A stretch of DNA of 64,000 nucleotides, taken from the NCBI RefSeq assembly GCF_900104665.1, contig NZ_LT629969.1, positions 653,716 to 717,715 on the forward strand, given 5' to 3'. The notes below the pieces were generated by a model. The model had not been told where the DNA came from. It saw nothing but the letters and a program-made list of their open reading frames with translations, and searched no databases. The DNA comes from Traorella massiliensis. GTDB lineage: Bacteria > Bacillota_I > Bacilli_A > Erysipelotrichales > Erysipelotrichaceae. Position numbers and translations under genes: made by a program. The first letter of the stretch is position 1, and every line of letters begins with the position of its first letter. Below, in pieces: positions 39,630 to 40,923 of the stretch.

Positions 39630-39791
39630 ATGTGGATGTGTTCAATTTGCGGTTATGAATTTGATGGAGAAGAGTTTTTAAATGAGGATGGTTATGTTTG
39701 TCCTTTATGTGAATCCAAAGACTCTTATCGTAAAAGAGATATGTCAATGGAAATTGAAATGGCTGTAAGAGAAATTAAAAATAATGATTAG
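39630..39791 (+). CDS. 53-residue rubredoxin-like zinc-ribbon protein
   Basis: A very small protein with two CxxC knuckles (CSIC at 4-7 and CPLC near 27-30) spaced as in the rubredoxin-like domain of rubrerythrins, and an acidic C-terminal helix. The FDGEEFLNEDGYVCPLC spacing suits one bound Fe or Zn. AAAGG precedes the ATG by 9 nt. It has its own promoter and terminator, so it is an independent gene. Possibly an electron carrier, but a structural zinc ribbon is equally likely. Confidence 0.8.
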   Translation: MWMCSICGYEFDGEEFLNEDGYVCPLCESKDSYRKRDMSMEIEMAVREIKNND

Positions 39792-39792
39792 G

Positions 39793-39818
39793 AAGCTGCT
39801 TAGGCAGCTTTTATTTTT
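39793..39818 (+). terminator. Terminator after zinc-ribbon gene
   Basis: AAGCTGC / GCAGCTT, 4-nt loop, then TTATTTTT. Confidence 0.88.
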
Positions 39819-39859: not shown

Positions 39860-39868
39860 TGGTATAAT
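39860..39868 (+). promoter_or_regulatory. Extended -10 promoter of the corA transcript
   Basis: TGG-TATAAT, with no good -35. Predicted start near 39875, giving a leader of about 110 nt before corA. Confidence 0.6.
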
Positions 39869-39891
39869 GAAGCAGGAAAGAAGGTGTTTGT

Positions 39892-39969
39892 ATGTCTCCT
39901 GAGCCCTTAGGCCCTGATCGAAGTAGAATGAATAAGAAAACAGGAGATGTGCAAGACTATCTCCTGTAA
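39892..39969 (+). CDS. 25-codon leader peptide upstream of corA
   Basis: A complete small ORF with ATG, stop TAA and its own ribosome-binding site (AAGAAGGTG, 7 nt upstream). The peptide starts MSPEPLGPDRSR, rich in Pro with an acidic residue before one Pro, and ends ...VQDYLL. Its codons 2-4 form arm 1 of a three-stem attenuator, and its stop lies in arm 3, 15 nt before the corA ATG. By analogy with the Pro-rich leader peptides of enterobacterial Mg2+ transporter genes (MgtL, CorL), it is proposed to sense ribosome behaviour under Mg2+ limitation. No sequence homology is claimed. Confidence 0.75.
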   Translation: MSPEPLGPDRSRMNKKTGDVQDYLL

Positions 39970-39980
39970 AAAGGAGGTAG
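39892..39980 (+). promoter_or_regulatory. Three-way attenuator controlling corA translation
   Basis: Arm 1 TCTCCTG (39895-39901), arm 2 CAGGAGA (39941-39947), arm 3 TCTCCTG (39960-39966), arm 4 AGGAGG (39972-39977, the corA ribosome-binding site). 1:2 extends to ten pairs over the leader start codon (39892-39901 with 39941-39950). 2:3 is nine perfect pairs (39940-39948 with 39959-39967). 3:4 is nine pairs with one G-U (39957-39965 with 39972-39980). 2:3 excludes both 1:2 and 3:4. This is the logic of a leader-peptide switch. Confidence 0.75.
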
Positions 39981-39984
39981 GAAT

Positions 39985-40923
39985 ATGATTGAATTCTACA
40001 AGACTTTTAATAATGTAACAAAGAAAATTGATGCACCTGAAAAAGGGTGCTGGATTAATGTCGTACATCCGACGACTGAAGAAACAGATTATCTGATCAA
40101 TGAAATTAAGGTTTTGCCTGAATTTGTCAAAGCTTCTCTGGATGAAGAAGAAAGTTCACACGTAGATTATGATGAAGATGAAGGACAGACACTTGTGATC
40201 GTAGACTATCCAAATGCTGATGATGATCCGAATAATAAGACACTATTGTATACAACTTTACCCTTAGGTGTTGTCATTATGAAGGATTACATTGTTACAA
40301 TTGCACTTCAGGAAAATCTCAATATAGAAGATATGGCTGAAGGAAGAGTGAAGGGGATGAATACAGAGTTAAAAACCCGCTTCTTACTTTTACTGCTTTT
40401 GAGAATTTCTCAACGTTATCTGATTTATCTGCGTCAAATTGATAGAGAGTCTTCTAGAACAGAAAGAGTGCTTCATCAGTCTATGCAGAATAAAGAATTG
40501 ATTCAAATGTTAGGACTTGAAAAATCACTTGTTTATTTCTCGACTTCTTTGAAGGCCGATGAGGTCACCTTGAATAAGATCATGCGTGGCAAGCTGATTA
40601 AGATGTATGAAGATGATCAGGATCTTTTAGAAGATGTTATGATTGAAATTCATCAGGCGGTCGAGATGTGTAATATTTATTCAAATATTTTATCAGGTAC
40701 GATGGATGCTTTTGCTTCCGTTATCTCGAATAATTTGAATATTGTTATGAAGGTATTGACTGTCATTACGATCGTTATGGCCATTCCTAATATTATTTTT
40801 AGTTTCTATGGAATGAATGTTGAAGGACTTCCAATTGCTCAGTGGTGGTTCCCAACTCTTCTGGCAGTGATTGCCTGTGTGATTGCTACTTGGATTTTTA
40901 AGAAAAAAGATATGTTTCATTAA
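39985..40923 (+). CDS. corA: CorA-family Mg2+/divalent cation transporter
   Basis: Pentameric channel-type Mg2+ transporter. The 312-residue protein has a large acidic cytoplasmic N-domain, a long stalk helix and two C-terminal membrane helices. The selectivity motif YGMNVEG lies near residue 276, and the tail is basic (KKKDMFH). The start follows AAGGAGG, which can be sequestered in the leader. A bidirectional terminator separates it from the convergent CCA enzyme. Confidence 0.94.
   Translation: MIEFYKTFNNVTKKIDAPEKGCWINVVHPTTEETDYLINEIKVLPEFVKASLDEEESSHVDYDEDEGQTLVIVDYPNADDDPNNKTLLYTTLPLGVVIMKDYIVTIALQENLNIEDMAEGRVKGMNTELKTRFLLLLLLRISQRYLIYLRQIDRESSRTERVLHQSMQNKELIQMLGLEKSLVYFSTSLKADEVTLNKIMRGKLIKMYEDDQDLLEDVMIEIHQAVEMCNIYSNILSGTMDAFASVISNNLNIVMKVLTVITIVMAIPNIIFSFYGMNVEGLPIAQWWFPTLLAVIACVIATWIFKKKDMFH

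Follow-up and report, generated by a model that had tools for sequence, protein, structure and literature searches.

A conserved leader peptide and mutually exclusive RNA stems before corA in Erysipelotrichales: a candidate Mg2+ switch

Described Mg2+-responsive leaders and the corA locus

Sensing of Mg2+ through instability of the ribosome on its nascent chain is described from enterobacteria, where it mostly concerns the Rho-dependent mgtL and corL leaders, and also mgtQ. A four-armed RNA is furthermore characteristic of the ermC-type attenuators, in which a ribosome positioned on arm 1 allows arm 2 to pair with arm 3 and the downstream ribosome-binding site to become free. In Escherichia coli, acidic residues at the nascent N-terminus destabilise ribosomes, an effect which is suppressed by high Mg2+ (PMC9718836); MgtL of this species begins with MEPDP (PMC8934632), and its EPDP motif destabilises ribosomes at low Mg2+ (PMC11282234). 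For mgtQ-mgtB of Salmonella, the four-arm logic is backed by mutations of the arms and their compensation, and both Asp2 and Glu5 are needed (Choi et al. 2021; PMC8092293). Translation of corL is inversely related to corA expression, and the conserved N-terminus of E. coli CorL, which had been cited as a Pro-rich precedent in the first-pass annotation of the present DNA, holds a single proline (PMC11552253).

In the current work, the window (the whole analysed stretch of 64,000 nucleotides from Traorella massiliensis) was found to contain a corA gene preceded by a short leader ORF and four RNA arms, for which the right comparisons are MgtL with respect to the peptide and Salmonella mgtQ-mgtB with respect to the RNA. 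The features common to mgtQ-mgtB and the corA leader are a short leader with acidic residues near its start, the location of arm 1 inside the leader, a closed form (stems 1:2 and 3:4) as opposed to an open form (stem 2:3), control at translation, and a stem 3:4 that hides the ribosome-binding site of a Mg2+ transporter gene (CorA being such a transporter here by family only). However, mgtQ consists of 8 codons with acidic residues at 2 and 5, is located between two operon genes (mgtC and mgtB) behind a PhoP-dependent promoter and controls mgtB, whereas the corA leader of 12-31 codons is probably the first in its own transcript, carries [DE]-P at residues 4-5, would control corA, belongs to Bacillota and has its start codon itself within stem 1:2. 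Since gene, length and acidic positions differ, an mgtQ orthologue was ruled out.

The likeness to mgtL (the mgtA leader of E. coli and Salmonella) consists of the M-x-P-D-P start and the link to a Mg2+ importer, but mgtL acts via Rho-dependent transcription termination whereas the corA leader hides a ribosome-binding site; the two transporter families are unrelated, and no sequence relation is seen past the first residues. The corL leader of E. coli and Salmonella is likewise an ORF before corA, yet it differs by its Rho-dependent termination, UUG start, single Pro and RNA design (PMC11552253). A stem hiding the Shine-Dalgarno (SD) sequence gives a sufficient read-out without a Rho-dependent terminator. 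The ermC-type attenuators differ in that arrest is drug-dependent and occurs at a later codon, the controlled gene confers resistance, and arm 1 is located away from the leader start codon. Filing the locus as mgtQ, mgtL or corL was rejected, as either RNA or peptide is alike but the defining features differ: the leader is a candidate Mg2+ switch which works like mgtQ, starts like MgtL and belongs to neither.

Cis-acting Mg2+ control in Bacillota is also provided by the M-box (ykoK) riboswitch RF00380, which differs by direct sensing through the RNA. An Rfam scan of the window returned no riboswitch at corA, RF00380 included. The only M-box found in the same genome sits before the gene for an mgtA-type Mg2+ P-type ATPase (G000:C6:110418-110579; L146, L171), no MgtE was found in this genome, and two different Mg2+ controls, M-box and corA leader, would coexist in it. 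Leaders of this kind in Bacillota or other Gram-positives were not reported in any of the open-access full texts searched. The occurrence of the same peptide start on a corA-locked leader in two Bacillota orders far removed from each other would establish this kind of sensing as widespread and as probably having more than one origin.

A leader ORF and three exclusive stems precede corA

The locus comprises the following elements:

39791..39812, + strand: hairpin resembling an intrinsic terminator, belonging to the zinc-ribbon ORF upstream (stem of 9 pairs with a T tail)
39860..39868, + strand: candidate extended -10 promoter, TGGTATAAT (from sequence; no good -35; absent from the promoter scan output)
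39878..39886, + strand: leader SD, AAGAAGGTG (from sequence; GGTG invariant in the 41-sequence alignment)
39887..39901, + strand: arm 1, including the leader start codon (fold, orthologue pairings, covariation with arm 2)
39892..39969, + strand: leader ORF of 25 codons, MSPEPLGPDRSRMNKKTGDVQDYLL, stop TAA (ORF in sequence; N-terminus conserved among orthologues)
39892..39906, + strand: M-S-P-E-P, the conserved M-x-x-[DE]-P motif (codon 4/5 counts in 38 distinct leaders; position-strict)
39940..39955, + strand: arm 2, of which 39941-39955 pairs with arm 1 or 39940-39948 with arm 3 (arm-swap tests)
39957..39967, + strand: arm 3, with arm 2 or arm 4 as partner (pair derivation, arm-swap tests)
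39972..39980, + strand: arm 4, the corA SD AGGAGGTAG, hidden in 3:4 (fold, pair derivation, arm-swap test)
39985..40923, + strand: corA, CorA-family divalent-cation transporter of 312 aa with YGMN motif (PF01544, E 4.3e-50)

The corA product matches PDB CorA chains (E 5e-22) and stays under the equivalog cut-off of TIGR00383 (NCBIfam CorA; 110.9 vs 200.75 bits), its putative substrate (Mg2+ as opposed to Co2+, Ni2+ or Zn2+) being assigned by family only. A small zinc-ribbon/rubredoxin-like ORF (39630-39791 of the window) is situated between tsf and the corA unit. Considering that the terminator-like hairpin at 39791..39812 closes this ORF, corA probably has its own transcription start; from TGGTATAAT, the 5' end of the leader mRNA would be located approximately 17-20 nt ahead of the leader ATG. 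A TGNTATAAT-like element, with its end 23-31 nt 5' of the leader ATG, is shared by 41 of 43 orthologues, and the leader is therefore probably first in its own transcript.

The sequence GAAGGTG is placed 5 nt 5' of the leader ORF, which with its 25 codons and its own ribosome-binding site was found exactly as the first-pass annotation had given it. Every pair of the three exclusive stems proposed there was re-derived: the core of stem 1:2 (39892-39901 with 39941-39950) has ten pairs of which two are G-U, stem 2:3 (39940-39948 with 39959-39967) nine Watson-Crick pairs, and stem 3:4 (39957-39965 with 39972-39980) nine pairs of which one is G-U. An inverted-repeat search recovers 1:2 and 2:3. The ten pairs previously assigned to 1:2 are correct, but the real stem extends further, joining 39887-39901 to 39941-39955, and the start codon of the leader lies inside it. 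For 39876-39999, the minimum-energy fold consists of exactly 1:2 and 3:4, at -36.2 kcal/mol (z = -4.3; 0 of 200 shuffles equally stable), and in forced folds of 146 nt the combination of 1:2 and 3:4 amounts to -38.8 kcal/mol vs -31.5 kcal/mol for 2:3. Alternative stems of the kind expected of an attenuator, 1:2 with 3:4 as opposed to 2:3, are present, and fold and pairs agree that stem 3:4 covers the corA ribosome-binding site, as had been proposed.

The leader peptide and all three stems are conserved

Orthologues of corA were gathered by protein search in the family, the order, the class and one clostridial order. The first-pass annotation, which had interpreted the locus as a leader-peptide attenuator acting on corA translation, had proposed a comparison of related corA upstream regions and had named lack of conservation as evidence against this interpretation; the comparison was performed, and both the uORF and the arms are conserved among orthologues, with covariation of the latter. 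Two Erysipelotrichales families supplied 40 close corA orthologues, of which 34 have an SD-preceded M-x-x-[DE]-P leader (examples being MSPEPESPY, MAPEPEANY, MSPDPSEYY, MSSDPIGIC, MSPEPEQVY and MTPEPEPRI). Among 38 distinct leaders, codon 4 specifies Asp or Glu in 34 and codon 5 Pro in 36; at these codons nucleotide conservation is 0.89-1.00 at positions 1-2 vs approximately 0.5 at position 3, with all four Pro codons and each of GAA, GAG, GAC and GAT in use. The conserved part is [DE]-P at exactly residues 4-5 (34 of the 40 loci, any other position at most 4), rather than a general richness in Pro as had been claimed. Considering that codons 4-5 fall outside the arm 1 core in most species, the constraint acts on the peptide, and the acidic and Pro residues of the leader N-terminus appear from these sequence comparisons to be selected as such.

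The C-terminal remainder of the leader drifts; across orthologues its length ranges from 12 to 31 codons and its stop ends 10-46 nt 5' of corA, being placed ahead of arm 2 in L054 and L055 and within the 2:3 loop in L051. A function in the leader C-terminus or stop was dropped, as lengths and stop positions vary among species. Two loci with a more distant corA (L043 and L044, genus g3) have leaders of the form MD[AS]GPYH, with the acidic residue at 2 and Pro5, and an inverted repeat close to the corA SD.

Stem 1:2 pairs 7 to 18 bases among the Erysipelotrichales orthologues listed, and two-sided changes are seen as AUGUCUUU/AAAGACAU in L010, as AUGUCUUCG/CGAAGACAU in L019 and L020, and as UUGUAUAUGGCUCCUG/CAGGAGGCAUAUGCAA in L008. 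In a fixed-register count, 88.8% of the cells of this stem are paired vs at most 53% when slid, with 20 double-sided changes vs 6.7 in shuffles. The MAFFT alignment is unfit for counting 2:3 and 3:4, because arm 3 is mis-registered in it (in rows such as L003 and L019), and alignment-free arm swaps with free register were therefore used. When arms were swapped between species, own partners were better than all 20000 permutations for each of 1:2, 2:3 and 3:4; among 19 representatives, chosen at approximately one per genus, the own arms were matched in 0, 0 and 2 of 50000 permutations, respectively.

The leader is specific to corA, such a uORF being present in 0 of 209 other genes (from the window and the flanking genes of the loci), and [DE]-P at residues 4-5 occurring at 1 of 39 other corA loci. 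The pattern AGGTG-N3-7-ATG-NCN-CCN-GAN-CC (SD plus M-[SPTA]-P-[DE]-P) has 33 matches in 245 genomes of the order, 31 of which are by coordinates directly before corA; the reversed control pattern has 0 matches in the same 245 genomes. One of the two non-corA matches (L288) was discarded as it sits within a long ORF. Hits of a looser pattern in 120 genomes of the class were, corA leaders aside, confined to the starts of ordinary genes and to ORFs arising by chance. No such leader precedes corA of Collinsella, Eggerthellaceae, Acholeplasmatales, Catenibacillus/Scybalocola and most other families of the class. The corA products of Catenibacillus and Scybalocola (L093, L094, L140), with 71-73% identity to the Traorella protein, are encoded without the leader, as if the gene had moved without its control region. 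In one genome of the same genus (G001, approximately 100% complete) corA had no match, from which the gene seems to be dispensable in the genus.

The comparison had been proposed for Erysipelotrichia, where the leader is indeed conserved, but the system is wider, as a second group was encountered in a clostridial order (reached via a Ruminiclostridium-labelled MAG, and probably Oscillospirales), with an SD-preceded M-x-x-[DE]-P leader at 50 of 70 corA loci. These leaders, often with a GTG start, include MTADPCG, MKADPCG, MKPDPLC, MNPDPYS, MSGDPRS, MSPEPRS and MGADPCS, and residue 3 is often Ala, Ser, Gly or Thr in place of Pro. The codon table of this set gives 100% at codons 4-5 by construction, since leaders were picked by motif; this does not affect the 50 of 70 count or the positional contrast: 50 of the 70 loci carry [DE]-P at residues 4-5, and no other position from 2 to 11 has it in more than 4. 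At four loci (L211, L213, L214, L226), M-x-x-[DE]-P leaders with a GTG start begin 58-70 nt before corA and overlap its start, which leaves scant room for a four-arm design, and another read-out may operate. At L218 and L220-L224, MSSDP/MSGDPLSRE leaders are located approximately 186-206 nt ahead of corA, and the long conserved spacer may hold further RNA structure.

Model-RNA response, proposed mechanism and alternatives

Folding was modelled with ViennaRNA, a block from -15 to +20 of the leader start mimicking a ribosome at or shortly after initiation. With arm 1 covered in this manner, opening of the corA SD costs a mean of 2.1 instead of 6.4 kcal/mol, and 39 of 43 orthologues show a drop exceeding 1 kcal (controls: shuffled 3.0 to 3.1; block in the spacer 7.2 kcal/mol). 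For the clostridial loci the corresponding change is from 7.8 to 3.9 kcal/mol, in 37 of 46 (shuffled 3.4 to 3.4). A ribosome on arm 1 would thus, according to the model, free the corA SD, as in an attenuator. A block on arm 2 likewise makes the corA SD easier to open in 24 of 43 orthologues, and on its OFF side the model is therefore not clean. For the window itself, a modelled ribosome on arm 2 leaves 3:4 fully closed, and one at the leader stop covers the corA SD; the latter possibility had been raised before and holds for the window, but the stop position is not conserved. Considering that it varies from 10 to 46 nt before corA, the leader stop should not carry the mechanism. With 146 nt of the window, alternative 5' pairing leaves the corA SD partly open when no ribosome is present; because this longer 5' flank weakens the OFF state, the opening energy changes little (2.3 to 1.8 kcal/mol).

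These elements probably constitute a translation attenuator with a nascent-peptide sensor, in which hold-up or loss of the ribosome at M-x-x-[DE]-P in low Mg2+ opens corA. By analogy with the enterobacterial leaders, we infer that the leader is translated, that ribosomes are held up or drop off at M-x-x-[DE]-P, that Mg2+ is the signal and that low Mg2+ corresponds to the ON state. In the absence of a ribosome on the leader start, 1:2 would pair and arm 3 would hide the corA ribosome-binding site (OFF); stem 1:2 would at the same time sequester the start codon of the leader. A ribosome initiating on the leader would cover arm 1. In low Mg2+ it would be held or lost at M-x-x-[DE]-P and never reach arm 2, and new initiations would keep arm 1 mostly covered, so that 2:3 pairs, ribosomes have access to the corA site and CorA is produced (ON). 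In ample Mg2+, the ribosome would run through, open 2:3 and leave, upon which 1:2 and 3:4 would re-form (OFF). The RNA is designed to signal that a ribosome lingers on approximately the first five codons, and it is exactly there that the conserved residues sit.

Most documented ribosome-destabilising sequences carry more acidic residues than the corA leaders, each of which has only one or two, and a purely compositional effect does not predict the strict position 4-5. Considering this strict position and the few acidic residues, a specific pause rather than general destabilisation is possible. As to a wider reading, the odds appear evenly balanced that M-x-x-[DE]-P acts during early elongation as a nascent-peptide sensor of Mg2+ with strict position, placed before corA in much of Bacillota, combined with RNA designs of several kinds (four-arm, overlapping and long leaders), and reached independently by enterobacterial MgtL (M-E-P-D-P). 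If true, bacteria in general, and not enterobacteria alone, would sense Mg2+ through ribosome instability by means of a simple five-residue code. The conserved corA leader itself supplies dozens of natural sequence variants, which would define M-x-x-[DE]-P as the minimal sensing motif, and it opens the way to a direct test in genetically simple Gram-positive hosts.

The same RNA switch could respond to a shortage of charged tRNA-Pro or to weak EF-P activity instead of Mg2+, given that Pro5 is the most conserved residue (36 of 38) and that the Salmonella MgtP leader answers to charged tRNA-Pro (PMC8092293). We regard this as unlikely: the Pro codons usually number one or two and stand singly, PP is absent from the conserved start, any of the four Pro codons may be used, Pro3 is frequently Ala, Ser, Gly or Thr in the clostridial leaders, and the acidic residue 4, for which a Pro sensor has no need, is nearly as strict. 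Somewhat less probable still is a leader that senses a general early-translation hold-up, for example antibiotic stalling on short nascent chains, with corA ON as part of a stress response. Its four-arm logic would be that of ermC-type leaders and, as arm 1 covers codons 1-4, any early hold-up would be predicted to open corA; however, the target encodes an ion transporter rather than a resistance function, the pattern goes with corA alone (in the 245 order genomes and the 120 class genomes), and M-x-x-[DE]-P resembles the Mg2+-sensing MgtL. To our knowledge, it matches none of the known drug-arrest motifs.

To translational coupling, in which the leader serves as first cistron and the corA site is re-opened by ribosomes that terminate at the leader stop, so that corA expression rises constitutively with leader translation, we attach the same low probability. 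Many species have the leader stop 10-20 nt ahead of corA, and the leader overlaps the corA start in some clostridial loci (L211, L213, L214, L226), but the stop is not conserved, being before arm 2 (L054, L055) or in the 2:3 loop (L051), and coupling leaves the conserved 1:2 and 2:3 stems and the fixed [DE]-P at 4-5 unexplained. A chance ORF with chance inverted repeats, although short ORFs and SD-like repeats (GGAGG/CCTCC) are common, is refuted to a negligible residue by conservation, covariation, gene specificity and the 0 of 209 background.

Two loci from another family of the class (L153 and L154) have the leaders MPEDICRYY and MSSDINRST, with Asp4 without Pro5, approximately 141-145 nt before corA and followed by a T-rich stretch, and are possibly a transcription-attenuation version.
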